Origin: a virus
DNA length: 43,133 nucleotides
Direction: 5' to 3' (one strand)
IMG/VR virus record: IMGVR_UViG_3300037070_003571
Location: 1-43,133 of that record
Shown here: piece by piece, positions 2,885-39,767 of the stretch
How the letters are laid out: the number at the start of each line of letters is the position of its first letter
Position numbering within the stretch: the stretch's first letter is position 1
The notes under the pieces: model-generated
What the model was told of the DNA's origin: nothing
Database searches by the model: none
What the model saw: only the letters and a program-made list of their open reading frames with translations
Position numbers and translations under genes: made by a program

Positions 2885-3024
2885 GCGGCCAAGTCTAGAA
2901 CCTCACGGACCACGTTAGCTTTGGGCTCACAATTGTGCGGTTCGCGGCAATTGAAGTGTTGACGGCGCGGCTCGCTTTGAGGTGGTATTAATGAGGGGTG
3001 TCCTACCGCCATAGGTGTAATCAC
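2885..3024. promoter_or_regulatory. Divergent control region between portal and terminase
   Basis: This 140-base gap must hold the start of the leftward virion operon and of the rightward terminase group. It contains a perfect 10-base palindrome, CACAATTGTG (2928-2937), a candidate operator. A TTGACG box (2959-2964) is followed 21 bases later by TATTAA (2986-2991), reading rightward. The spacing is longer than the usual 16-18, so this promoter is only tentative. Confidence 0.4.
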
Positions 3025-3356: not shown

Positions 3357-4789
3357 GCGTCTGGAAGCCCCAGCCCGGGCCGCAGCTGCACGCCATCGAG
3401 GCGACCTGGGCGCCTGAACTGTTCTACGGAGGGGCCGCCGGCGGCGGCAAGAGCGACTACCTGCTGGGCGACTACCTGCAGGACGTGACCCGCTACGAGC
3501 AAGCGTGGCAGGGGATCATCTTTCGACGGACGTTCCCCGAACTGGAGGAGCTGCAGGCGCGCTCGCGGGAGATTTACCCGCAGACCGGGGCGATCTGGAG
3601 CGAGGCGCGGCGGACCTGGACCTGGGGCAACGGGGCGGCGCTGAAGATGCGCTACCTGGAGCGGGACATGGACGCCACCCGCTACCTGGGCCATCAGTAC
3701 GCCTGGGAGGGGTGGGACGAGCTGACCCAGTGGCCGAGCCTCTACGGCTACCGCTACCTGCGCGCCCGCCTGCGCAGCGCCCACAACGTGCCCACCAAGC
3801 GGATCAGGGCGGCGGCCAACCCGGGCGGCCCCGGCCACCTGGCGGTGAAGGCCTATTTCATCGACCCGGCGCCGATGGGCTATGAGCCGATCAAGGACCC
3901 GGAGACCGGCTCGGACCGCATCTTCATTCCGGCCAAGCTGCGCGACAACCAAATCCTGCTGGCCAACGACCCCAACTACGAGGGCCGGCTGAAGGGCCTG
4001 CCGGGGGTGCTGGTCAAGGCCATGCTCGACGGCGACTGGAACATCGTCGAGGGCTGCTTCTTCGACAACTGGAGTGGCCGCAACATCATCCGGCCGTTCA
4101 CCATCCCTGACGACTGGCTCAGGTTCCGCGCCATGGACTGGGGATCGGCCCGCCCTTTCTCCATCGGCTGGTTTGCGGTCTGCCAAGAGCCGGTGGAGGT
4201 GGAGAGCCAGACCGGGACGGTGATGCTGCCCCGGGGGTGTCTGATCCGGTATCGCGAGTGGTACGGCTGTGCTGGGGAACCGAACGTCGGCCTGAAGCTG
4301 ACAGCTGAACAGGTCGCGTTCGGGATCAAGGACCGCCAGAGCGAGAGCGTCGCCTATGGCGTCGCTGACCCGGCGATTTTCTCCTCCGATGGCGGCCCCT
4401 CCATCGCCGAGCGGATGTTCCGCAACGGCGTGGTCTGGCGCCGGGCCGACAACAGCCGGGTGGCCAAAAGCGGCCACATGGGCGGCTGGGACCAGATGCG
4501 CTCGCGGATCGGCGGCGACGAGGAGGGGCCCATGCTGGTCAGCTTCCACACCTGCCGGGACTTCATCCGCACCATCCCGGTGATGCAGCATGACCAGAGC
4601 CGGGCCGAGGACATCGACACGGCCGGCGAGGACCACGCCGCCGACGAGTGCCGCTACGCCTGCATGAGCCGGCCGTGGATCAACGATCCGCCGGCGCCGA
4701 AGGAAGCGATCCGGCCCCTCGGCCAGATGACCTTCTCCGAGGTGCTGGCGTTCAACGATCGGCTGCAGGAGGCGGCGAACGACTGGTGA
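3353..4789 (+). CDS. terL: Terminase large subunit (packaging ATPase-nuclease)
   Basis: 478 residues. The protein docks on the portal, pumps DNA into the procapsid using ATP and cuts the concatemer. The Walker A motif GGAAGGGKS is at 26-34, and a Walker B with catalytic acid is in YAWEGWDEL around 116-124. The C-terminal RNase H-like nuclease has its acidic residues in AMDWGS (D262), VADPAIF (D339) and DTAGEDHAADE (about 422-432). Length is normal. The GTG start overlaps the upstream small gene. The gene faces away from the portal and meets the convergent 4790-5032 gene stop to stop. Its small-subunit partner is about 7 kb away on the opposite strand, which is unusual. Confidence 0.95.
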   Translation: MSVWKPQPGPQLHAIEATWAPELFYGGAAGGGKSDYLLGDYLQDVTRYEQAWQGIIFRRTFPELEELQARSREIYPQTGAIWSEARRTWTWGNGAALKMRYLERDMDATRYLGHQYAWEGWDELTQWPSLYGYRYLRARLRSAHNVPTKRIRAAANPGGPGHLAVKAYFIDPAPMGYEPIKDPETGSDRIFIPAKLRDNQILLANDPNYEGRLKGLPGVLVKAMLDGDWNIVEGCFFDNWSGRNIIRPFTIPDDWLRFRAMDWGSARPFSIGWFAVCQEPVEVESQTGTVMLPRGCLIRYREWYGCAGEPNVGLKLTAEQVAFGIKDRQSESVAYGVADPAIFSSDGGPSIAERMFRNGVVWRRADNSRVAKSGHMGGWDQMRSRIGGDEEGPMLVSFHTCRDFIRTIPVMQHDQSRAEDIDTAGEDHAADECRYACMSRPWINDPPAPKEAIRPLGQMTFSEVLAFNDRLQEAANDW

Positions 4790-13232: not shown

Positions 13233-13442
13233 ATGATCAATCCAATCGCCCTTGAGCAGCTCATCGACGACGAAGGCCTTGCGGCCATCCTCGACGCGCT
13301 CGCCGTCATCGCCGATGAGAAGGCCGAGCATATCCGCGCCAGCTATGAGGGCGCCGCCGACCCAACCGCGAAGGCCTGGGAACGCGCGGGCGTCCGCATC
13401 GGCGCCGCCGCTGGCGCCGTCCGCAACCTGCTGGGGGCCTGA
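13233..13442 (+). CDS. 69-residue helical protein, first of tiny-gene array
   Basis: Acidic helical protein (IALEQLIDDEGLAAILDALAVIADEKAEHI) with a glycine/alanine C-terminus. Preceded by GGAGGG. Small proteins of this type are frequent in temperate phages of alphaproteobacteria, as I recall; function unknown. The stop is followed by GCC and the next ATG, the first instance of the recurring junction. Confidence 0.65.
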   Translation: MINPIALEQLIDDEGLAAILDALAVIADEKAEHIRASYEGAADPTAKAWERAGVRIGAAAGAVRNLLGA

Positions 13443-13445
13443 GCC

Positions 13446-13700
13446 ATGGCATTCACCATCGAATACACAAACTGCGGCCGGGTCATTGAAGCCCGCACGC
13501 GCCACACAGCGCGGGGCGCCGCGATCAGCCTGGGCCCGCTCGCCTATGAGGTTATTCGCGGTCAAGCCATGCTGGATAGGCCTGCCGGTCACCGCTTCGC
13601 CCGGTGCGCCGAGACCATTCGCCAAGCGCTCAAGGCGGGCGACATCGTCGGCGCCGAGCTGCGGTTTTTCAACTCCGCGCTGACCATCACGAAAGCCTGA
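13446..13700 (+). CDS. 84-residue hypothetical
   Basis: Mixed alpha/beta sequence with basic patches (VIEARTRHTARGAAI, GHRFARCAETIRQALKAGD). Ends ...TKA and is followed by the short form of the junction (GCCTGAGCC-ATG). No family recognised. Confidence 0.6.
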   Translation: MAFTIEYTNCGRVIEARTRHTARGAAISLGPLAYEVIRGQAMLDRPAGHRFARCAETIRQALKAGDIVGAELRFFNSALTITKA

Positions 13701-13703
13701 GCC

Positions 13704-13937
13704 ATGCAGTACACCAACGACCTGCTAGCCCAACGGCTGGCGAGCGCGGTCACGTCCTATGACCGGCGCCGATGCAAGCGCCGGGACTACAACCATTACG
13801 CTCTCGGCATCTACCTGATGCGCTGTGACGACATCGTCTCAGCCGTCGAGCGCGGCGAAAGCGTCCGCAACGCAGTCTTTCAAGGCTTCACCGGAGACCT
13901 GCGCGACCACGTCCTGAGCGCGCTTCAACCCGCCTGA
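13704..13937 (+). CDS. 77-residue basic hypothetical
   Basis: The N-terminal helix is followed by a very basic segment (SYDRRRCKRRDYNHY), then an acidic helical C-terminus. Possibly nucleic-acid binding. The gene is followed by a stable hairpin (13949-13968). Confidence 0.6.
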   Translation: MQYTNDLLAQRLASAVTSYDRRRCKRRDYNHYALGIYLMRCDDIVSAVERGESVRNAVFQGFTGDLRDHVLSALQPA

Positions 13938-13948
13938 CCCCTGATCAA

Positions 13949-13968
13949 CGGCCCTCCTGCGAGGGCCG
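13949..13968 (+). promoter_or_regulatory. Intercistronic hairpin 1
   Basis: CGGCCCTC pairs with GAGGGCCG around CTGC in the 74-base gap after 13937. No U-tract follows, so it is more likely an RNA-stabilising or processing element than a terminator. Confidence 0.45.
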
Positions 13969-14011
13969 CACTCCAGGCGCCACGCCTGCAACCCCGAGGA
14001 GGCCTTAGGCC

Positions 14012-14137
14012 ATGTTCCTGATCATCGACAGCAACGGCGCCCGCCTGGGCGCCTACACCGACCGCGCAGCCGCCCTGGCCTGCGCCCGCGATCTGGCCGC
14101 CTGCGGGCTGGCCGTGCGCCTTGTGCGGGGGCGCTGA
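14012..14137 (+). CDS. 41-residue protein
   Basis: MFLIIDSNGARLGAY... ends VRLVRGR. Preceded by a perfect GAGGAGGCC Shine-Dalgarno in the junction module. A beta-alpha-beta-like mini-domain is plausible from the pattern (hydrophobic strand, Asp/Gly turn, Ala-rich helix, strand). Function unknown. Confidence 0.55.
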   Translation: MFLIIDSNGARLGAYTDRAAALACARDLAACGLAVRLVRGR

Positions 14138-14138
14138 C

Positions 14139-14315
14139 ATGTATCAAGTCACCTGGACTATCGACGTCGAGGCGTCGAGCCCGCGCGAAGCTGCGCTGTA
14201 CGTGTGGCGCCACATCTTTAACCGCGACGAACCGCAGCCGGATGACGCTTGCGTGTTTGAGGTGGCCGCGCCCTTCGAGGCCGGCGCCCGTGTCGACCTT
14301 GCCGAGGAGGCCTAA
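14139..14315 (+). CDS. 58-residue acidic hypothetical
   Basis: ATG lies one base after the previous stop. MYQVTWTIDVEASSPREAALYVW reads as a strand followed by a helix, and an acidic end (VDLAEEA) includes the next gene's Shine-Dalgarno. Similar strand-helix mini-proteins with a SPxEAA motif are common in phages. No function assigned. Confidence 0.6.
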   Translation: MYQVTWTIDVEASSPREAALYVWRHIFNRDEPQPDDACVFEVAAPFEAGARVDLAEEA

Positions 14316-14318
14316 ACC

Positions 14319-14564
14319 ATGGGCTACACGATTACCCCGGCCCGCTATGCCAAAGGGCAGATGCTCGTTCGCTGCCCCTCGGGCGATGGCTACAAGACCC
14401 GCGCCGCGCGCTTGATCGGCGACGGGCTAAAGTGCCGGTTCTCCGGTCGCTGCGGCGGCTACATCGCCAGTCCAGCCAAGGCGCGGCGGTTCGAGCGGCT
14501 CTATGCCGAGGGGTGGGACGCAAGCAGCGTTACCGGCAAATTCTATCCCCCAAAGAAGGCCTGA
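14319..14564 (+). CDS. 81-residue basic hypothetical
   Basis: Basic, with cysteines in VRCPSGDG and in LKCRFSGRCGGY, and aromatic-rich elements (YIASPAKARRFERLYAEGWDA) that could form a small metal-binding or RNA-binding domain. Ends PPKKA within the junction module. Confidence 0.6.
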   Translation: MGYTITPARYAKGQMLVRCPSGDGYKTRAARLIGDGLKCRFSGRCGGYIASPAKARRFERLYAEGWDASSVTGKFYPPKKA

Positions 14565-14569
14565 GGCCA

Positions 14570-14626
14570 ATGACGCTCAGCGAGCTTGACCGCGCCAGCG
14601 CCGCCCTGGCGCGGCGCCGCATCTAG
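14570..14626 (+). CDS. 18-residue micro-gene
   Basis: ATG 14570 to TAG 14626 encodes MTLSELDRASAALARRRI. It is preceded by AAGGCCTGAGGCC, the same junction as full-length neighbours, and followed by GGCCTGA. The short length alone would not be convincing, but the junction context suggests it is translated, perhaps as a leader peptide before the hairpin that follows. Confidence 0.4.
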   Translation: MTLSELDRASAALARRRI

Positions 14627-14640
14627 GCCTGACCGTCTCG

Positions 14641-14666
14641 GTTGCGCCCCTTCCGGGGGGCGTAAC
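14641..14666 (+). promoter_or_regulatory. Intercistronic hairpin 2
   Basis: GTTGCGCCCC pairs with GGGGCGTAAC (one G-T wobble) around TTCCGG. It sits in the gap between the micro-gene and the gene at 14704. No U-tract. Confidence 0.45.
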
Positions 14667-14703
14667 AGTGACAGCCACGTCAACCGGGCAAGGAGGCCCA
14701 ACC

Positions 14704-14952
14704 ATGATCCGTGTCGAAACCGTCACGGCGCCCGCCGTCTGGGCGTCCTACCTGATCAACGGCGACGCCTCAGGCATCACCGATCAGGACCGCGAGGCCT
14801 GCGACGCATGGCACGCCGCGCAAGCGCCGTTCTACGTAGTCAGCTGCACCGACGACGACCCCCGTTTCACGTGGAGCTACAGGCTCCACGGCGGCAACGC
14901 CGGGGGCGGCGACGTCCTCGACTACATCCTTCATTCTACCGAGGAGGCCTGA
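14704..14952 (+). CDS. 82-residue acidic hypothetical
   Basis: Starts MIRVETVTAPAVWASYLINGD with Shine-Dalgarno AAGGAGG. Acidic and aromatic, with a conserved-looking end (GGDVLDYILHSTEEA). I recall similar small proteins in many phages of diverse hosts, without known function. Ends in the junction module. Confidence 0.65.
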   Translation: MIRVETVTAPAVWASYLINGDASGITDQDREACDAWHAAQAPFYVVSCTDDDPRFTWSYRLHGGNAGGGDVLDYILHSTEEA

Positions 14953-14956
14953 GGCC

Positions 14957-15190
14957 ATGAAAACTGGCTCCGTAGCTCACGCGCTGGACACTCTGGAGCG
15001 TGACCTCATCATCGAAGAAACCGACTGGCCAAAGGCCACGGTGCAAGCCCTCGCGCGGCGCGCCGGCGGCTACGACTCCAACGGCGTACGCGTCAAAATG
15101 AACGTGCGCTTCCCCAAGGGCGGCCCCGTCGAGGGCGTCCGCTGGTTCGAGGCCATCGAAATCCCCTACGCACGCAGATGGGGGGCCTGA
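14957..15190 (+). CDS. 77-residue hypothetical
   Basis: Contains an amphipathic helix (VAHALDTLERDLIIEETDW), a basic helix (KATVQALARRAGGY) and a strand (GVRVKMNVRFPKG). It might be a small DNA-binding or modulator protein. No family recognised. Followed by hairpin 3. Confidence 0.6.
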   Translation: MKTGSVAHALDTLERDLIIEETDWPKATVQALARRAGGYDSNGVRVKMNVRFPKGGPVEGVRWFEAIEIPYARRWGA

Positions 15191-15199
15191 CACGCGACC

Positions 15200-15223
15200 T
15201 AGCCGGCTCTCCGGAGCCGGCTA
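15200..15223 (+). promoter_or_regulatory. Intercistronic hairpin 3 with UNCG loop
   Basis: TAGCCGGCTC pairs perfectly with GAGCCGGCTA around TCCG, a C(UNCG)G tetraloop known to be unusually stable in RNA. Located between the genes at 14957 and 15268. Confidence 0.55.
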
Positions 15224-15267
15224 CACCGTGCGCCATGCACGCCAACCCGGGCAGGAGGCCCAACCCC

Positions 15268-15510
15268 ATGCAATCCAAGCGTTACGACGGCGTCCTGTGC
15301 CGCCTCATCGACAAGGCCACCGGGCGCGAGCTTCGGGCTGGCGACACCGTCACCGACTTTCGGGGCGAAGCCCTTGTGCTGCGCGGCGGTCGGGCGCCGC
15401 ACAAGTGCAGCAGCCAGGGCCATGTCACGGTCTCGCGACCGGGCTTCAACCCTAGCGACTACGGCGCCGAGTACTATGCCAGCGTGATTAACGCCAAATG
15501 GGAGGCCTGA
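15268..15510 (+). CDS. 80-residue beta-rich hypothetical
   Basis: MQSKRYDGVLCRLIDKATGRELRAGDTVTDFRGE... reads as successive beta strands with Gly/Asp turns, followed by a basic loop (GRAPHKCSSQGH). A small beta-barrel is plausible. Similar phage proteins with a TGRELRxGDTVTDFRGE core seem familiar, but the function is unknown. Shine-Dalgarno GCAGGAGG. Confidence 0.65.
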   Translation: MQSKRYDGVLCRLIDKATGRELRAGDTVTDFRGEALVLRGGRAPHKCSSQGHVTVSRPGFNPSDYGAEYYASVINAKWEA

Positions 15511-15514
15511 GGCC

Positions 15515-15757
15515 ATGAGTTATCGCGACCTGCTCCCCGAGGAGCACGAGGCCCTGGAGGCCTTCGCCGACGCCTTCGGGCGCCGCTGGAGGGACACCCT
15601 CGGCAACACCTACTGGTACAACGCCCGCGTCTGGGAGGGGGGCAGGCCCGGCATGGGCTCGACCCTGCACCGCATCCGCAACGACTTCGGGCCGGCGTGG
15701 CTCTGGGACATCTACAAACCCCGCAAGAGCTACAAACCCCGCAAGAAGGACGCCTGA
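15515..15757 (+). CDS. 80-residue aromatic-rich hypothetical
   Basis: Acidic N-terminal helix (EEHEALEAFADAFGRRW), then Trp/Tyr-rich loops, then a tandem repeat YKPRKSYKPRKKDA at the basic C-terminus. The repeated YKPRK may bind nucleic acid. Junction modules on both sides. Confidence 0.6.
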   Translation: MSYRDLLPEEHEALEAFADAFGRRWRDTLGNTYWYNARVWEGGRPGMGSTLHRIRNDFGPAWLWDIYKPRKSYKPRKKDA

Positions 15758-15761
15758 GGCC

Positions 15762-15947
15762 ATGATCAATCGCCGAGTTGAAATCCCCCCCTACGCCCGC
15801 CAGCGCCAGGAGGGCGAGCGCTACGGCCTCGCCCTGGAGCGCAAGACCCTGGTCAGCGGCCCCAACGCGGGCCGCGAGGCCGTCGTGGTGCTGCTCGACA
15901 GCGGCGCCCACCGCACCTACGTCGCCGCCGATTGCAGGTGGCTGTGA
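15762..15947 (+). CDS. 61-residue hypothetical
   Basis: A compact basic protein (RRVEIPPYARQRQEGERYGL...) with beta strands at VVVLLDSG and TYVAADCRWL. It could be a KOW/SH3-like mini-domain, by pattern only. The stop overlaps the next ATG. Confidence 0.6.
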   Translation: MINRRVEIPPYARQRQEGERYGLALERKTLVSGPNAGREAVVVLLDSGAHRTYVAADCRWL

Positions 15948-16102
15948 TGACCCGCACCCACCCCCTGGCCCTGGCCCGGCGCGCTCGCGCCCTGGCCATG
16001 TTCTCCACCGGCGACGAGCGGACCTTCTGGGTCCGCCGCGCCCTCACCCACCTCGCGGACGCACGCCACCAGCGCGGCGCCGCTCGCCTGATCGGAGCTT
16101 GA
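15947..16102 (+). CDS. 51-residue basic hypothetical
   Basis: Arg/Ala/His-rich helical protein (THPLALARRARALAMFSTGD, then RRALTHLADARHQRGAA). ATG overlaps the previous stop. Strong positive charge suggests nucleic-acid contact. Confidence 0.55.
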   Translation: MTRTHPLALARRARALAMFSTGDERTFWVRRALTHLADARHQRGAARLIGA

Positions 16103-16105
16103 GCC

Positions 16106-16348
16106 ATGACCCACTTCGCCCTGACCCGCGTCTATGAGATCAGCGTCCTACGCCACCGCTTCGCCCTCGCCAGCGAGGCCCTTGAGGCCGCCCTGGCGTT
16201 CGAATGCGGCCACACCGACTTCCTTGATTACGAGATTACCTACAGCGAAGGTGATCAGACGGAGACCTCCGAGGCCGATGGCTGGTCCGTCGAGGTCATG
16301 CGCGTCAACCCCCGCGACCGCCTGGGCAACCTCGCCCCCAAGGCCTAA
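16106..16348 (+). CDS. 80-residue acidic hypothetical
   Basis: A beta-alpha-beta pattern (ALTRVYEISVLRHRFALASEALEAALAFE) with an acidic Thr/Glu-rich loop (YSEGDQTETSEADG). Resembles the strand-helix mini-protein at 14139. Followed by hairpin 4. Confidence 0.6.
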   Translation: MTHFALTRVYEISVLRHRFALASEALEAALAFECGHTDFLDYEITYSEGDQTETSEADGWSVEVMRVNPRDRLGNLAPKA

Positions 16349-16357
16349 CGCCGGGCC

Positions 16358-16381
16358 AGCGGTCCCCTCCGGGGGGCCGCT
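16358..16381 (+). promoter_or_regulatory. Intercistronic hairpin 4 with UNCG loop
   Basis: A ten-pair stem with one T-G wobble closes on C(TCCG)G, the same hyperstable tetraloop class as hairpin 3. It lies in the 74-base gap before the gene at 16423. Confidence 0.5.
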
Positions 16382-16422
16382 CACCGGGCGCCCGCCCGAT
16401 CCCCACCGTCAACGGAGACACC

Positions 16423-16740
16423 ATGTCCAAGCACACCATCCACGACCCCGCCGAGGCCCGCATCGCCAAGAAGGTGGTGGACTGCCTGCTGGCCGCCTAT
16501 CCCAAGGTCGCCGTCTGGGAAGGCGAGGACTGGGCGCTGAAGGGTTCAGCCGACAAGGCCGCGATCATGCTCGCCCTGGCCAGCACCGACAGCGACCGCC
16601 TGCTGGTCAACCACGAAGGCAAGCGCGCCATGGTCTGGCTGATCTGGGGCAACGGCTGCGACCTGATCAGCGACTACAGCACCGTCCTTGAAGACGTGCT
16701 GAAGCCCGCCACCGACTACGCCAACACCCAGGAGGCCTAG
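16423..16740 (+). CDS. 105-residue hypothetical
   Basis: One of the larger array members. N-terminal helix (AEARIAKKVVDCLLAAYP), acidic Trp-containing strand (VAVWEGEDWALKG), then helix and a strand GKRAMVWLIWGNG. It resembles small alpha/beta phage proteins of unknown role. Shine-Dalgarno CGGAGA; ends ...TQEA in the junction module. Confidence 0.65.
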   Translation: MSKHTIHDPAEARIAKKVVDCLLAAYPKVAVWEGEDWALKGSADKAAIMLALASTDSDRLLVNHEGKRAMVWLIWGNGCDLISDYSTVLEDVLKPATDYANTQEA

Positions 16741-16744
16741 GCCC

Positions 16745-17041
16745 ATGACCACCCCCCAACCCTACCGGGTCAGCGTCAACGCGGCCCGGGGCGCTCCCAT
16801 GGGACGCCCCGACACCGGCGCCATCGATCCCGACAGCCGCGCGCGCCGGGTCCGCCTGCGCTCCGTCCCGCTCCATGAGGGCTATGACCCCGGCGGCGCC
16901 TATTGGGGCGAGCGTCGCCCCGGGGAGATGCTGTTCTGCGCCTGGAGCCGCGACTTCGTCCGGTTCATGGACGCCAGGAGCTACCTGCTGGTCGAGGAGA
17001 TGATCCGGCGCCAGTTCCCCAACGCGGAGTTCTGCGGATGA
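16745..17041 (+). CDS. 98-residue hypothetical
   Basis: Starts with a beta-like RVSVNAARGAPMG, has RLRSVPLHEGYDPGGAYWG in the centre and FVRFMDARSYLLVEEMIRRQFP near the end. I recall this GGAYWG-type core in phage proteins of several hosts, always unassigned. The stop overlaps the next ATG. Confidence 0.65.
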   Translation: MTTPQPYRVSVNAARGAPMGRPDTGAIDPDSRARRVRLRSVPLHEGYDPGGAYWGERRPGEMLFCAWSRDFVRFMDARSYLLVEEMIRRQFPNAEFCG

Positions 17042-17220
17042 CCCTCACCCCCCTGGAGCAGCGCCTACTGGGGACGCTGACCGCCTTCGAAGCCCTGATG
17101 CAGCAGCATCGGGGCTACCCCCCGTTCACCGTCCTGCACCGACTGCGCATCCGCATCGGCCAGGACATGCTTGTCGCCAACCGCACCGCCGTCGAGCGGC
17201 GCCAGAAAGAGGAGGCCTAG
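17038..17220 (+). CDS. 60-residue helical hypothetical
   Basis: Helical protein (TPLEQRLLGTLTAFEALMQQH) with a basic end (RTAVERRQKEEA). ATGA overlap with the upstream gene, junction module downstream. Confidence 0.6.
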   Translation: MTLTPLEQRLLGTLTAFEALMQQHRGYPPFTVLHRLRIRIGQDMLVANRTAVERRQKEEA

Positions 17221-17224
17221 GCCC

Positions 17225-17407
17225 ATGGACGACGACCTCACCTACAGCATTGTCCAGGTCGGGCTGCCTGACCGCTGGCGCCCAGCCGGAACCTGGGCCT
17301 TCACGCTCAGCGACGGCTCGCATTGCGGCACCGGGTTCACCTCTGTTGATGCGGCTGACGCCGCCGCACGGCGCCACATGCAGGCCCTGACCGAGAGGGC
17401 CCCATGA
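17225..17407 (+). CDS. 60-residue hypothetical
   Basis: Strand-rich start (LTYSIVQVGLPDRW) followed by an Ala-rich helix (SVDAADAAARRHMQAL). Preceded by a perfect GAGGAGGCCTAGGCCC-ATG junction. The stop overlaps the next ATG. Confidence 0.6.
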   Translation: MDDDLTYSIVQVGLPDRWRPAGTWAFTLSDGSHCGTGFTSVDAADAAARRHMQALTERAP

Positions 17408-17640
17408 CCCCCGAGGAACTGCGCCAAGCGCGCGAGGACCTGGGCCTCATGTGGGGCCTGGGCAGGCCCCTGCAGATGCAGGAGCTGGGCCGCATCCTGC
17501 GGCTGGGGGGGCGGGACGTGGGCACCCAGGTCGGGCGCTGGGAGAAGGGCCTCCACAAGGTCCCCGGCCCCGCCGCCCTGGCCATCGAACTCATGCTGCG
17601 GGGCGCCAAGCCCCAGGCGATCATCAGGAAGGAGGGCTGA
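17404..17640 (+). CDS. Helix-turn-helix regulator, last of array
   Basis: 78 residues with an XRE-like pattern: LRQAREDLGLMWGLGRPLQM, then ELGRILRLGGRDVGTQVGRWEKG and PGPAALAIELMLRG. The VGRWEKG segment matches the recognition-helix/turn region of small phage HTH proteins. Its nearest relative in the window is the convergent protein at 17650-17922, which shares LG-MW-LGR, LGG-D-G and RW--G in order. Likely regulates this array or the convergent operon. Confidence 0.7.
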   Translation: MTPEELRQAREDLGLMWGLGRPLQMQELGRILRLGGRDVGTQVGRWEKGLHKVPGPAALAIELMLRGAKPQAIIRKEG

Positions 17641-22577: not shown

Positions 22578-23390
22578 ATGATCTGCGACCTTACGACCCT
22601 GGGACTATCGAAGGAGGCCGTCGAGGGCCGCGCCCATAGCATCGGCGGCTCCGACGCCAACGTGATCCTGGGCGGCGACGAAGCCAAGCTGCTGAAGCTC
22701 TGGGAAATCAAGACCGGCCGGGCCGAAGAGGAGGATCTGTCGGAGCTGATCTACGTGGTGATGGGCCAGTACACCGAGCCGCTGAACGCGGCGTGGTGGC
22801 AGAAGCAGACCGGCCTGACCCTGGCCAGCCGCAGCGAGTTCCTGACCTGCGAGATGGACGAGTGGCGCACCGCCACCCTGGACGGGCGGGTGTCGGATGG
22901 CTCGATCTGGGAGGCCAAGCACACTAACCCCTTCACCAAGGTGGACGAGGTGTTGCGGATGTACCTGCCGCAGCTGCACCACAACATGGACGTGGCCAAC
23001 GCCAAGCGCGCCCACCTGTCGGCCTTCCGGGGCAACGGCGACTGGGTCAGCTGGTGCGTCGACTACGACGACGCCTATGGCGCCGCCCTGCATCAGGCCG
23101 AGTGGAGCTTCTGGATGAGCGTCATGGAGGATGTCCCTCCGGTGGCCTATCCGGTCCCGCCCGACCCGACCCAGTTCGCGGTGCGCGAGGTGGACATGAG
23201 CGGCGACAACACCTGGGCCGACGCCGCGCAGACGTGGCTCGACACCCGGGTCTACGCAGCCAAGGCCGACAAGGCCAAGGACGTGATGAAGGCGCAGATC
23301 GCGCAGGATGTCGGCAGGGCCTTCGGCCACGGCGTCGAGTTCAAACGTGACAAGCGTGGCGCCCTGCGCGTCTACGCGATGGAGGCTTGA
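22578..23390 (+). CDS. YqaJ-type alkaline exonuclease
   Basis: 270 residues from ATG 22578, preceded by GGGAGAGG. Lambda-exonuclease-like enzymes resect 5' ends of dsDNA for annealing-based recombination. The order of motifs fits the family: SIGGSDA (21-27), MGQYTEP with Glu67, LDGRVSDG with Asp102, WEAKH with Glu112 and Lys114 of the PD-ExK core, and Gln132 in the following helix. First gene of the operon and directly followed by a likely annealing protein, the usual pairing. Confidence 0.85.
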   Translation: MICDLTTLGLSKEAVEGRAHSIGGSDANVILGGDEAKLLKLWEIKTGRAEEEDLSELIYVVMGQYTEPLNAAWWQKQTGLTLASRSEFLTCEMDEWRTATLDGRVSDGSIWEAKHTNPFTKVDEVLRMYLPQLHHNMDVANAKRAHLSAFRGNGDWVSWCVDYDDAYGAALHQAEWSFWMSVMEDVPPVAYPVPPDPTQFAVREVDMSGDNTWADAAQTWLDTRVYAAKADKAKDVMKAQIAQDVGRAFGHGVEFKRDKRGALRVYAMEA

Positions 23391-24330: not shown

Positions 24331-24768
24331 ATGGTGCAGCTGGTGGTCAAGCGTGTTGGCCGAGGTCTCTACCCCGCCGATGGGCTGGCGGAAACGGAGG
24401 TCTACACCCTGCCGGCCAACATCGACCTGCGGGCGGAAGTGGCGAACCCTCGCCGCTCCGTCCCGCAGCTGCGGCTCTACTGGGCGATCCTGCAGCTGGT
24501 CGCCGAGAACATGGACAAGCCCACCAACCGCAACATCCTGCACCAGTGGGTGAAGCTGCGCTGCGGGGTGGTCGACGACCTGGTGCTGCGCTCCGGTGAA
24601 ATCATCGAGCTGCCCGGCTCCATCGCCATCGACCAGATGGACGAGACCGCCTTCAACAGCTTCTTCGACCAGGCCCTGACCCACATCACCGCCGGGCTCA
24701 CCAACCTCGCCCGCGAGGACCTGATCGCCGAGGCCGAGCGGATGCTCGACCGGGCGAGGACGCCATGA
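24331..24768 (+). CDS. 145-residue phage recombination-operon protein
   Basis: RRSVPQLRLYWAILQLVAENMD... with a later helical part (LPGSIAIDQMDETAFNSFFD) is a pattern I recall from many phage genomes next to recombination or nuclease genes, without an established activity. The size is typical. Its end overlaps the next ATG. NinB-like recombination accessory function is one possibility. Confidence 0.6.
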   Translation: MVQLVVKRVGRGLYPADGLAETEVYTLPANIDLRAEVANPRRSVPQLRLYWAILQLVAENMDKPTNRNILHQWVKLRCGVVDDLVLRSGEIIELPGSIAIDQMDETAFNSFFDQALTHITAGLTNLAREDLIAEAERMLDRARTP

Positions 24769-25240: not shown

Positions 25241-25506
25241 CCCGCCTGACCGCCAAGGAGTGGTTCCTGCTGCGCTGGCTCGGCGAGGAGGACTACAGTC
25301 TGCTGGGCGAGTGCGAGGGCGCCGACCTCGACACCCTGATCGCCAAGGGCTTGGCCGAAAAAACCGGCGTCAGCGGTTACACCCGGGTGACCCTCACCGA
25401 AAAGGGCCAGAGGGCGCGCGACGATAGCGACGATGGGTTGGACGCCCTCAGGGCCGCCGAGAAGGAGACCTATCGGCGGTATTCCGCGAAGGGGCCTCGG
25501 CCATGA
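25237..25506 (+). CDS. Winged-helix-like small protein (copy 2)
   Basis: 89 residues. LLRWLGEEDYSLLGECEGAD, then LDTLIAKGLAEKTG and YTRVTLTEKGQRARD parallel the preceding gene in order and spacing. A longer charged tail follows. Possibly DNA-binding. ATGA overlaps with both neighbours. Confidence 0.6.
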   Translation: MTRLTAKEWFLLRWLGEEDYSLLGECEGADLDTLIAKGLAEKTGVSGYTRVTLTEKGQRARDDSDDGLDALRAAEKETYRRYSAKGPRP

Positions 25507-26192
25507 CCGCCCCGCGCCTGCTCGACCTCTACTGCGGCGCCGGCGGGGCGGCGCGCGGCTACGCGGACGCCGGGTTCGATGTGCTGGGCGTCGATATCAA
25601 GCCCCAGTCCCGCTACCCCTATCCGTTCATCCAGGCCGACGTGCTGGAGCTGCTGGCCCAGCCCGGCGCGGCGAGTGACTACGACGTGATCCACGCCTCG
25701 CCGCCCTGCAAGCCCTACACGGCGCTCAGGAGCGCGCCTGGGGCCAAGACGCACCCGGCGCTGATCCCAGCCACCCGCGCCCTGCTGAGGGCCTCTGGCA
25801 AGCCCTACGTGATCGAGAACGTCGAGGCCGCAGCCTGGGACATGATCGACCCCGTCCGCTACTGCGGCACCATGTTCGGCTTGGGCGTCGAGGGCTTCGA
25901 GCTGCAGCGCCACCGGCTGTTCGAATCCAACATCCTGATCATCCCGCCACACCGCTGCTGGCATCGCTGGCCGGTAATCGGCGTCTACGGCGGCCACGTC
26001 CGCAACCGGGCCGCCGCCGCTGGCGGGCGCGGGACGATGGACTTCGTCGGCCAGGATAAGCCGGCGCTGGCCAAGCAGGCCATGGGCATCGACTGGATGA
26101 CCATGAAGGAGCTGAGCGACGCCATCCCGCCGGCCTATACCCGGCACATCGGCGCCCAGCTGATCGCGCACCTGCAAAGGAGGGCGGCATGA
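25503..26192 (+). CDS. DNA cytosine-C5 methyltransferase
   Basis: 229 residues, shorter than typical C5 enzymes because the target-recognition region is small. It methylates cytosine C5 in DNA, probably to shield phage DNA or to tune host or phage promoters. Motif I DLYCGAGG (8-15), the catalytic PPC (Cys69), ENVE (105-108) and QRHR (135-138) are all present, as is a C-terminal IPPAYTRHIGAQL segment. No restriction enzyme is next to it. It is well fused into the recombination/integration operon by overlaps on both sides. Confidence 0.85.
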   Translation: MTAPRLLDLYCGAGGAARGYADAGFDVLGVDIKPQSRYPYPFIQADVLELLAQPGAASDYDVIHASPPCKPYTALRSAPGAKTHPALIPATRALLRASGKPYVIENVEAAAWDMIDPVRYCGTMFGLGVEGFELQRHRLFESNILIIPPHRCWHRWPVIGVYGGHVRNRAAAAGGRGTMDFVGQDKPALAKQAMGIDWMTMKELSDAIPPAYTRHIGAQLIAHLQRRAA

Positions 26193-26681: not shown

Positions 26682-26971
26682 CCGAGGCTCTGCCGAACTG
26701 GCCGGCGGTGATGACCACCCAGCGCGCCGCCCGCTACCTGGATATCTCCGAGAATAGTTTTCGAGCCCTGGCCAAGCGCGAGGGTGTGAGGCCGCTGGAC
26801 CTGGGCATGGTGGCCATGCGCTGGCGCCGGGCGGACCTGGATAACATGGTGGACCGGCTGTCGCTGCAGGGCGATCTGGCCGAAGCAGCCGAAGCAGCCG
26901 ACAGTCTCGAAGCGGTCCACGACCGCGCACATCAGTTCTATGCAGCCAAGCGTCGCAAGAGGGGCAAATGA
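26678..26971 (+). CDS. Xis-like MerR-type helix-turn-helix protein
   Basis: 97 residues. TTQRAARYLDISENSFRALAKREGV followed by WRRADLDNMVDRL is the excisionase/MerR-type HTH that binds and bends DNA. A coiled acidic stretch and a basic end (KRRKRGK) follow. Immediately upstream of, and overlapping, the integrase, the standard place for an excisionase or directionality factor. Confidence 0.7.
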   Translation: MTEALPNWPAVMTTQRAARYLDISENSFRALAKREGVRPLDLGMVAMRWRRADLDNMVDRLSLQGDLAEAAEAADSLEAVHDRAHQFYAAKRRKRGK

Positions 26972-28185
26972 AGTACGTCAACAAGATCACCGACCGCTAC
27001 GGGAACGTGCGGTGCTACCTGCGCAAGAAGGGCCACCCGCTGGACGGCACGCTGCTGACCAGCCCGTGGCCCGAGATCGAGGCCGGATCGGCCCTGGAGG
27101 CCGAGCGGGACGCCGCGCTGGGCATCCAGCCGCACCGCCCCACCGGCAAGAACCTGGGCGGCGCCATCGCCGAATACCGGCTGAGCCCGAAGTACCGGCG
27201 GCTGAAGAAGCGCACCCGCTACAACTACGAGCTTTTCCTGGCCGAGTTCGAGCAGGTCTACGGCGACCAGCCGATGGACCTGATCTGCCGCTCCTCGGGG
27301 TGTCGGCGGATGATGTCCGAGTGGTCGGCCAGCGGCCACCGGGCGGCGACGGTCAGAAAACAGGTGATGATGAACGTCATGAAGCCCTGGGCGGCCGACA
27401 ACGACCGGCCCAATCCCTGGGCGATGGTGGACAACGCCCTGGCGCCCACCGACGCGAAGGAGGCCCACCCGACTTGGCCGCAGGTGGTGGTGGACACCTT
27501 CATCGAGCAGGCGGCGCTGCGCGGCCAGCCGGGCGTGGGGCGGGCGGTCGCCCTGGCCCGCTACTCGGGGGCCCGGCGGGGCGACCTGATCTGGATGACC
27601 CAGGCGGTGCGCAAGGCGACCGAGGACGGCCCGATCCTGGACTGGCTTTCCACCAAGTACAGCGTGCAGGTCACCATCGATGAGGACGTGAGGCTGACCG
27701 ACTGGCTGGACCGCCTGCCGAACATGCAGCCCCTGTCGAACTGGCAGCGCTGGTCAGACCGCCAGAAAGGTCAGGCGCGGGTCGCCCCCGCCACCATCGT
27801 CTACACTCAGGAGAACCTGCCCTACATGACCGAGGAGGGCCTGGGGCACGCGGTGCGCGCCCTGGTGCTGGAGTTGTTTGCGGACGATCTGATCGACGCC
27901 GACCACTACACCCTGCACGGCCTGCGCCACACCTTCGGGGTGGAACTTGCCCTGGCCGGGGCCACCGAGCAGGAGGGCATGAGCGCGATGGGGCACCGGG
28001 GCCCCGAGACGTTCCGCAAGTACGTTCGGCAGGCCAGCCGCATCCAGATGGCGCGGGCTGGCATGAAGAAGGTCCGCGACAAGCGGGACGGCCAGACGCC
28101 GGCGCCGATGGCGGCTGGGGTCAACGAAAACGCCCCCCAGGGCGAAGTGCAAAACAAAGTGCAAAAAACTGCAAAACAAGCGTGA
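26968..28185 (+). CDS. int: Tyrosine integrase
   Basis: 405 residues. It catalyses site-specific recombination between attP and attB. Catalytic features are the first Arg in YSGARRGDL near 200, HGLRHTF (317-323), GH at 342-343 and the nucleophile Tyr352 in FRKYVRQ. The N-terminal region is a SAM-like arm/core-binding domain. The last 50 residues are Gln/Lys/Ala-rich, encoded by DNA that doubles as putative arm sites. attP follows within 60 bases. Confidence 0.92.
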   Translation: MKYVNKITDRYGNVRCYLRKKGHPLDGTLLTSPWPEIEAGSALEAERDAALGIQPHRPTGKNLGGAIAEYRLSPKYRRLKKRTRYNYELFLAEFEQVYGDQPMDLICRSSGCRRMMSEWSASGHRAATVRKQVMMNVMKPWAADNDRPNPWAMVDNALAPTDAKEAHPTWPQVVVDTFIEQAALRGQPGVGRAVALARYSGARRGDLIWMTQAVRKATEDGPILDWLSTKYSVQVTIDEDVRLTDWLDRLPNMQPLSNWQRWSDRQKGQARVAPATIVYTQENLPYMTEEGLGHAVRALVLELFADDLIDADHYTLHGLRHTFGVELALAGATEQEGMSAMGHRGPETFRKYVRQASRIQMARAGMKKVRDKRDGQTPAPMAAGVNENAPQGEVQNKVQKTAKQA

Positions 28186-38777: not shown

Positions 38778-38789
38778 TTCAGGCCTCCT

Positions 38790-39767
38790 CTAAGCGACAA
38801 GCACGCCGTGCAGCTGGGCGTTGGACAGGGTCATGTTCCCGGCCCACACGATCAGCTTGACGCTGGCGTCTTGGTTGATGGAGTTGACGGTCTCCAGCGG
38901 CACGCGGTTGCGGCGGCTGGACGGCCGGTATTTGATGTAGTTGGTGTTCAGCATGTAGAGGTGGTTGGCCGGGCAAGCCGCGCCGATGGCGCCGTCCGGG
39001 ACCACATCCGCGCCCATGTAGTCGAGCGAGCGGAAGCCAGCGGCGGCGCTCTGGTCGCCGTTGCGGGTGATCCGTTGCATCGCCTGCAGCGAGGACCAGT
39101 AGAACTGGAAGTAGTTGTTGTCGGCGATGATGAAGTCGATGGTGTCGGGGCCGCGCTTGGTGCTCAGCCAGAGCTGGTTCATGTAGCCCTGGATGGTGGT
39201 CGCCGAGACCGCCGCGCCGCCGTTGGCCACGCCCGCGAACACCTGGTTGCGCCAGAACGCCCACTGCGCCCGGTCGATGCCGCCAACCACCCCGGAGGTC
39301 GGCGCGTCAGCGATCAGCAGCTGGACGCCGCCGATCTGCAGGCCGCCATCGGCGGTCCCGTTGCTGTACATGTCGTAGTTGAGGTTGTTGTCGAAGGTCT
39401 TCTCGGCGTTGCTGATCCGGCCTTCCATCAGGTCGATGACCTGGCTGGCGCCGGTGTTCTGGACGTCGATCTCCAGGCCGTTCCAGGTGACCGCCACCGC
39501 CGCCTGCTTCCAGTCGAACTCGGCCGCCGTGAACACGTCCGAGGGCGAGATGTTCAGCAGCTGGGCGCCGGCGTAGCGCTGGTAGGTGCCGTTCTCGGCG
39601 TACTCCAACTCCTGCACGATGGTCCGACCGCCCGAGACGGGCTTGATCGAGCCCGAACTCTTCATCTTGGAGAGCAGGGCGTTGTTCTTGGTGAAGTTGT
39701 CCACCGCCTCACCCGAGCGGTTGCGCAGGGTGCTGGTGACAATCTCGTTGAGGTTAGGCGAAGGCAT
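38790..39767 (-). CDS. Major capsid protein
   Basis: 325 residues. The N-terminal arm region (NEIVTSTLRNRSGEAVDNFT), an E-loop-like stretch with RTIVQELEYAENGTYQRYAG, and a long P-domain helix around residues 110-130 fit an HK97-fold coat. It sits between a scaffold-like gene and a decoration-like gene. Length is typical of podoviral coats. The assignment rests on position and overall pattern. Confidence 0.8.
   Translation of the reverse strand: MPSPNLNEIVTSTLRNRSGEAVDNFTKNNALLSKMKSSGSIKPVSGGRTIVQELEYAENGTYQRYAGAQLLNISPSDVFTAAEFDWKQAAVAVTWNGLEIDVQNTGASQVIDLMEGRISNAEKTFDNNLNYDMYSNGTADGGLQIGGVQLLIADAPTSGVVGGIDRAQWAFWRNQVFAGVANGGAAVSATTIQGYMNQLWLSTKRGPDTIDFIIADNNYFQFYWSSLQAMQRITRNGDQSAAAGFRSLDYMGADVVPDGAIGAACPANHLYMLNTNYIKYRPSSRRNRVPLETVNSINQDASVKLIVWAGNMTLSNAQLHGVLVA

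Follow-up and report, generated by a model that had tools for sequence, protein, structure and literature searches.

The virus record IMGVR_UViG_3300037070_003571 was analysed over its full length of 43,133 bases (hereafter the window); it has a GC content of 68% and contains, on the + strand at 13233-17640, an array of 19 tiny genes joined by 18 borders, with 18 gene starts between 13446 and 17404. Many of these borders carry variants of one short sequence in which the stop codon of the upstream gene, a Shine-Dalgarno (SD) sequence and the next start codon are packed together, and this sequence, here called simply the border, is the subject of the present analysis. We consider it rather probable that the border is a lineage-specific, reiterated stop/SD/start module, which would couple the translation of adjacent genes and also offer a short homology for the exchange of one gene at a time.

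An earlier note on this DNA had counted at least ten borders with a variant of the motif, and the count holds: GGAGGCC or a one-base variant lies directly 5' of the ATG at 10 of the 18 borders, on the + strand and at the place given, with the upstream stop inside the module in most of them. The starts concerned have their ATG at 14012, 14319, 14570, 14704, 14957, 15268, 15515, 15762, 16745 and 17225. Three weaker borders (13446, 13704 and 16106) have only CTTGAGCC/CCTGAGCC-ATG in common, and five are plain: TGACATG at 14139, TGATG at 15947, the start at 16423, and ATGA at 17038 and 17404. Between the end of the border and the ATG there are 0-2 nucleotides (nt), and in most cases the border reaches into the upstream gene; stop and ATG are separated by 3-5 nt at most borders of the window, with the SD sequence within the final codons of the upstream gene. 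Several sub-types can be distinguished, namely AGGAGGCCTAGGCCCATG (twice, an exact 18-mer), AGGAGGCCCAACC (twice) and GCCTGAGCCATG (twice), two of the window's sub-types being exact 17- and 18-mers. The core had also been described as an inverted repeat, which is true for part of the array: the repeat is intact at 6 of the 18 borders, as GGCCTNAGGCC at 14001, 14558, 14946 and 15504 and as GGCCTAGGCC before 16745 and 17225, and broken at the others. Similarly, concerning the EEA/KA residues in which unrelated proteins were said to end, no paralogy was found among the 19 array proteins and 13 of the 19 have a C-terminal Ala, but an EEA, QEA or WEA ending is present in only five.

Reading the array from its 5' end, always on the + strand, the first gene, g0 (13233..13442, 69 aa, ending in ...GA), is followed by the weak border GGGGGCCTGAGCC-ATG (13434..13448), which has GCCTGAGCCATG in common with the border between g1 (13446..13700, 84 aa, ending in ...TKA) and g2 (13704..13937, 77 aa). 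The border GAGGAGGCCTTAGGCC-ATG (13996..14014) stands alone 3' of a GC-rich hairpin and opens g3 (14012..14137, 41 aa), after which come g4 (14139..14315, 58 aa, ending in ...EEA, with a weak match to PHROG 14483, of unknown function), the border GAGGAGGCCTAAACC-ATG (14304..14321), g5 (14319..14564, 81 aa, ending in ...KKA), the border GAAGGCCTGAGGCCA-ATG (14554..14572) and g6 (14570..14626), an 18-codon open reading frame that is doubtful as a gene. Also standing alone 3' of a hairpin, AAGGAGGCCCAACC-ATG (14690..14706) precedes g7 (14704..14952, 82 aa, DUF6926-like, with relatives in alphaproteobacterial phages that have no border, ending in ...TEEA), which the exact consensus GAGGAGGCCTGAGGCC-ATG (14941..14959) joins to g8 (14957..15190, 77 aa). 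The same position behind a hairpin is occupied by the stand-alone border CAGGAGGCCCAACCCC-ATG (15253..15270), leading into g9 (15268..15510, 80 aa, ending in ...WEA), which is linked by GGAGGCCTGAGGCC-ATG (15501..15517) to g10 (15515..15757, 80 aa, ending in ...KDA), and this by AGGACGCCTGAGGCC-ATG (15747..15764) to g11 (15762..15947, 61 aa). There follow g12 (15947..16102, 51 aa), with its plain TGATG start, g13 (16106..16348, 80 aa, ending in ...PKA) and g14 (16423..16740, 105 aa, ending in ...QEA), a member of the phrog_4158 family of unknown function. The border AGGAGGCCTAGGCCC-ATG is found twice as an identical 18-mer, at 16730..16747 in front of g15 (16745..17041, 98 aa) and at 17210..17227 between g16 (17038..17220, 60 aa, ending in ...KEEA) and g17 (17225..17407, 60 aa); the array closes with g18 (17404..17640, 78 aa), transcription-regulator-like (phrog_14076) and entered through an ATGA overlap. 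Four gaps between genes, each about 75 nt long (13938-14011, 14627-14703, 15191-15267 and 16349-16422) are built alike, with a stop, a GC-rich hairpin without a T-run, a short leader that often resembles CACGCCAACC, an SD sequence and the ATG, and they may divide the array into sub-operons. No terminator-like site was found within the array, and terminators between the sub-operons were rejected because the hairpins there have no T-runs.

When the motif was scored against a background, as the earlier note had proposed, ordinary SD statistics were not matched. A match of at least 12/16 to GAGGAGGCCTGAGGCC is present at 7 of the 18 array starts and at none of the 494 other + strand ATGs, against a probability of 0.0074 per start (about 0.13 predicted) under a Markov null already containing GGAGG. 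Within the window, GAGGCCTNAGGCCATG at up to two mismatches occurs six times in the forward and never in the reverse orientation, and the reversed control pattern gives no hit; the array motif is confined to one strand. Eleven border pairs have an exact 12-mer or longer in common, compared with a mean of 0.16 (maximum 3) in random ATG sets. Elsewhere in the window, the ATG of one structural gene (start 38777, - strand) is immediately preceded by GAGGAGGCCTGA (38778-38801), and the border habit therefore extends slightly beyond the array.

An exact scan for GGAGGCCTNAGGCCATG over 2.9 million viral contigs of IMG/VR gave 33 loci. Those of high GC are single copies, as expected by chance; a podophage-like group of about 45% GC, hereafter the second group, has up to 7 exact motif copies per record and up to 9 at two mismatches. 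In its richest records the 5-9 copies per genome are on one strand only and confined to an array, and the reversed-pattern control is nearly empty. At three mismatches or fewer, 63 low-GC border contexts were collected, 43 of them with the exact core GGAGGCCTGAGGCC. Conservation of the second-group border drops 5' of about position -17 and 3' of the ATG, so that it is limited to about 17 nt; the upstream stop codon is provided by the border in 33 of 55 cases, with a gap of 4 nt there, and border pairs within one genome have exact runs of up to 26 nt in common. The most complete record (40,151 bases) encodes a gp2.5-like annealing protein, a primase-helicase, a DNA polymerase, a Cas4-type exonuclease and endonuclease I, the primase and the polymerase being named by eye, and the B12-dependent ribonucleotide reductase of the group is about 60% identical to the enzymes of Lentibacter and Roseobacter phages. 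On the - strand of L036, the start at 3415 (0-based on the reverse complement) has a border with one extra G (GAGGAGGGCCTAGGCCATG), where the upstream gene lacks the EEA stop and reads a few codons into the next gene. A further group of 40% GC (L012, L014, L027, L031 and L033) has GGAGGCCTAAGGCC-ATG borders, and in it a gene beginning MSEQKYVS... lies between borders in L027 and is missing from L014 and L031.

In 17 second-group records, in which genes were called and clustered into families (F numbers), a collinear replication block adjoins a variable bordered array. We compared pairs with the same downstream gene and a different upstream gene (70 pairs), and found that identity is about 25% up to position -15 and 90-100% from -14 into the gene, with the exception of the stop-codon position -6 (81%). 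In the opposite arrangement, with the same upstream gene and a different downstream gene (42 pairs), identity is high through the ATG and falls to background (0.1-0.5) from +3. The homology ends 13-22 nt 5' of the ATG in 70 of 70 switched border pairs, of which the 13-nt minimum is partly due to the selection of border pairs and the 22-nt stop is not, whereas in switched pairs without a border its median reach is 1 nt; therefore ribosome sites in general are not shared. There are 44 distinct junctions among the 55 borders, and eight of them recur in at least two independent contigs. Gene orders are permuted and not just thinned, since F0-F19 in L010, L036 and L037 corresponds to F19-F0 in L034, and F9 lies before F24 and F14 in L028 and after both in L010. 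Furthermore, the same gene ends in CVDWGVEI* in L010 and in CVDEEA* at the border in L011 and L028, that is, by an in-frame cut at the border. Sequence comparison thus shows that single-gene replacement in this group has its exact edge at the border, and the idea of a micro-cassette system, put forward for the window, is in this way supported in a second group with the identical motif, where neighbours switch exactly at the border.

Several points weigh against this reading. The second-group loci were collected through the motif, which inflates the border counts, and two cassette genes were searched independently of the motif to offset this; many of the contigs are metagenomic. The upstream neighbour is unchanged in 14 of 84 comparisons for bordered genes and in 134 of 303 for unbordered genes, but these rates pool variable and conserved regions. 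Non-border neighbours turn over too, for example F5, with 8 upstream neighbours in 9 contigs, and several second-group relatives have the same genes with other ribosome sites; the border is therefore not needed for gene turnover. In the window, three borders stand alone behind hairpins, although most fit a short coupling distance, and exchange at the borders in the window's own lineage is proposed by analogy, because no relative with its array is present in the searched collections. Arrays with the same genes and different borders, which the earlier note had named as telling against its idea, were found in part: relatives have the same genes with other ribosome sites, and isolate phages contain gene families of the window without the border. 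Since the same families are found with other ribosome sites in relatives and isolates, the comparisons indicate that the border is lineage-specific, a property of certain genomes and not a fixed part of each gene. The borders of a genome also seem to evolve together and may be replaced jointly. The second-group relative L177 has a different 14-nt border, GGAGATCTAGAGAC-ATG, twice (2812-2825 and 2987-3000), and the border of L168 resembles a hybrid (GGAGATCTGAGGCC).

Concerning the relatives of the window's genes, those found through the terminase are at most 56% identical, too distant for comparison, and the motif is absent from the viral ones among them. Neither the terminase, nor a 389-aa phage protein of unknown function, nor the concatenated array proteins led to a relative with the motif or the array, the last query giving one distant relative of g14 only; a search with the window's second border variant returned one locus with a single copy, and no record with repeated copies was found among the isolate phages scanned for the motif. 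Three array families are related to isolate-phage genes: g7 to genes of Brevundimonas, Rhodobacter, Citromicrobium and Synechococcus phages, g10 to a gene of Rhizobium phage RHph_I20 (61% identical, with a different junction) and g14 to genes of Stenotrophomonas and Pseudomonas phages. Since the aligned isolate relatives have neither the border nor an EEA-type ending, the simplest reading is that these genes gained the border within the lineage of the window. In two isolate phages an ArdA antirestriction gene is close to the window-family gene. L045, a relative of the window by its terminase, has on its - strand several starts with a common leader resembling CAACCAC-GGAG, possibly another lineage-specific start sequence.

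The portal and other structural genes of the window phage are on one strand and the array is on the opposite one, which also encodes a RecE-like/YqaJ recombination exonuclease (22578..23390, + strand), a NinB/Orf-like recombination mediator (24331..24768, + strand), a DNA methyltransferase (phrog_363, 25503-26192) and a tyrosine integrase (26968-28185) of ordinary-looking phage type, 9 kb from the array. From this gene set, with its integrase, recombination genes and methyltransferase, the phage is probably temperate. The closest portals are those of Rhizobium phage RHph_I3_18, Bradyrhizobium phage ppBjS10J-1 and Myxococcus Mx8, a likeness that suggests, without proving it, an alphaproteobacterial host. 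Rfam and tRNA scans gave no matches. Common descent of the two motif-bearing lineages was considered and rejected: the window terminase was not found in second-group records, in a search without a positive control, and the portals of the two belong with different phage relatives. The window phage and the second group thus look unrelated, and the motif likeness may have come about by convergence or by horizontal spread.

A possible mechanism can be outlined from these observations. With GGAGG in the last codons of the upstream gene, TGA, TAA or TAG ending that gene and the ATG within 3-5 nt, a ribosome finishing one gene would meet SD sequence, stop and start within about 20 nt and could begin the next. 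The coupled translation predicted by the earlier note agrees with this anatomy, the support being at the sequence level only. Because nearly the same 14-18 bp flank each array gene, they would be available to the annealing recombination enzymes of the phage, and recombination of the annealing type, joining borders of one genome or of two co-infecting phages, could add, delete or swap single genes, any crossover at a border giving a correct stop, SD spacing and start. We infer that recombination takes place at the border itself, although the border might just mark units that are exchanged in another way; the recombination might be effected in the window phage by the RecE-like exonuclease and the NinB/Orf-like protein, and in the second group by the gp2.5-like annealing protein, the Cas4-type exonuclease and endonuclease I. 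Phage recombinases are known to work where homology is limited or diverged (PMC2327257, PMC3945230), and might do so on stretches as short as 17 bp. Going farther, and as a tentative proposal to which we give somewhat less than even credence, the border could be a self-propagating plug-and-play junction of which every joint of the accessory array has received a copy, made uniform inside each genome and exchanged for another from lineage to lineage; recombination there would turn any two genes into a correctly expressed pair. The array would in that case serve as an evolvable store of cassettes, one that either arose independently or spread horizontally in two or more unrelated phage lineages.

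It is also conceivable, though rather unlikely in our opinion, that the border is a translation signal only, with selection for one optimal coupled ribosome site and with exchange by illegitimate recombination filtered for intact genes. Such a signal would account for the full GGAGG in the core at a usable distance from the ATG, for the turnover of families with and without the border and for the variability of the window borders, several of which are plain. It should be noted, however, that CC-TGA-GGCC has no ribosome partner and yet is conserved as strongly as the SD sequence, that other genes of the same genomes lack such a sequence, with a median shared length of 1 nt, that the SD-conditioned null does not yield the window borders, and that the runs of up to 26 nt between borders of one second-group genome are exact. 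We find it distinctly improbable that the border is a regulatory target, that is, a binding site for RNA or protein, such as a translational operator or a GGCC-UGA-GGCC hairpin masking part of the SD sequence and switching the whole array. This sequence does fold as a 4-bp stem (-6.1 kcal/mol), the border lies 5' of many unrelated genes on one strand, and a binding site was proposed by the authors of a similar system (PMC3203893); but an RNA hairpin at the border is not supported, as it fares no better than shuffled sequences (z -1.0 and -0.4), the inverted repeat survives at only 6 of 18 window borders, and where its arms change in the second group, the change is on one side and never compensatory.

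A site-specific, integron-like cassette system, with a dedicated recombinase acting at the border, would fit genes that behave as individual cassettes, all oriented alike and with an unvarying junction, and a tyrosine integrase is encoded in the window. We regard it as very improbable: the border measures just 14-18 bp, neither array was seen to have a recombinase next to it, the window integrase resembles an ordinary phage integrase, and relatives swap the same genes without the border. That the pattern is an artefact, made of ordinary SD statistics in the window and, in the metagenomic group, of chimeras assembled across a repeat, seems to us scarcely credible. The IMG/VR records are indeed metagenomic and each genome contains the border repeatedly, but the motif and shared 12-mer statistics of the window stand out against their nulls, the eight junctions mentioned above recur in independent contigs, the common stretches are usually shorter than 21 nt, and the in-frame truncation of the upstream gene at the border is present in two samples.

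Among known systems, the closest to the border is the start-associated sequence (SAS/ESAS) of cluster K mycobacteriophages, a short start-codon repeat found in one orientation, in 11-19 copies per genome, at many unrelated small non-structural genes (PMC3203893). SAS has a 13-bp consensus, GGGATAGGAGCCC, with an SD-like core, sometimes overlaps the upstream stop, lies 3-7 bp from the start and mostly follows intergenic gaps of more than 50 bp; its authors suggested a role in translation and a possible target of homologous recombination (PMC3203893). The border likewise is repeated in one orientation at the starts of many unrelated genes, both in the window and in the second group, but it abuts the ATG (0-2 nt), in most cases takes in the stop of the upstream gene, is free of extended inverted repeats of 17 bp and, in the second group, is indicated by the alignments as the exact edge of gene replacement. 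The SAS consensus has one site in the window, at two mismatches and on the opposite strand, which is fewer than expected by chance. Because sequence and spacing differ, the border is a functional analogue of SAS and not a member.

The boundary sequences between modules of lambdoid phages were proposed as homologous recombination sites that preserve module order and function (cited in PMC3029335); they separate large functional modules and are missing at most mosaic joints (PMC3029335). Homology between second-group genomes also starts or stops at a shared short sequence, but here the units are tiny single genes, almost all of whose joints in the array have the border, and the border brings with it a stop, a ribosome site and a start. 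Termination-reinitiation coupling needs a stop about -8 to +10 nt from the next start, an SD sequence and short distances (PMC10666635), and in the border, as in such coupling (PMC6728339, PMC10666635), stop and start are a few nt apart with the SD sequence inside the upstream gene; unlike the usual ATGA or TGATG overlaps, which have no conserved sequence, the border is a fixed 14-18 nt with a gap of 3-5 nt, which falls in the range where reinitiation is known to operate (PMC10666635). Morons come with a promoter and a terminator of their own (as described in PMC3029335); array genes are similarly gained and lost singly between other genes, but have a common ribosome-site junction in one array in which no terminator-like site was found. 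The conservation of the second-group border, just about 17 nt, also differs from that of the integron. An attC-type site measures about 60-140 bp and has conserved ends.

Phage mosaicism has long been debated between homologous recombination at boundary sequences and illegitimate joining followed by selection (PMC3029335, PMC3945230), and the debate has lasted for decades largely because boundary sequences could not be found at most joints. In the second group such a sequence is present at almost every joint of the accessory array and homology breaks on it within a few nt, while close relatives without the border serve as a natural control. Moreover, the joint carries translation signals, and these suggest why it works: every exchange would be functional at once. 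What is new with respect to the systems discussed here is that a single reiterated module unites the stop, the ribosome site and the start, and that genome comparison points to this module as the edge of single-gene exchange.

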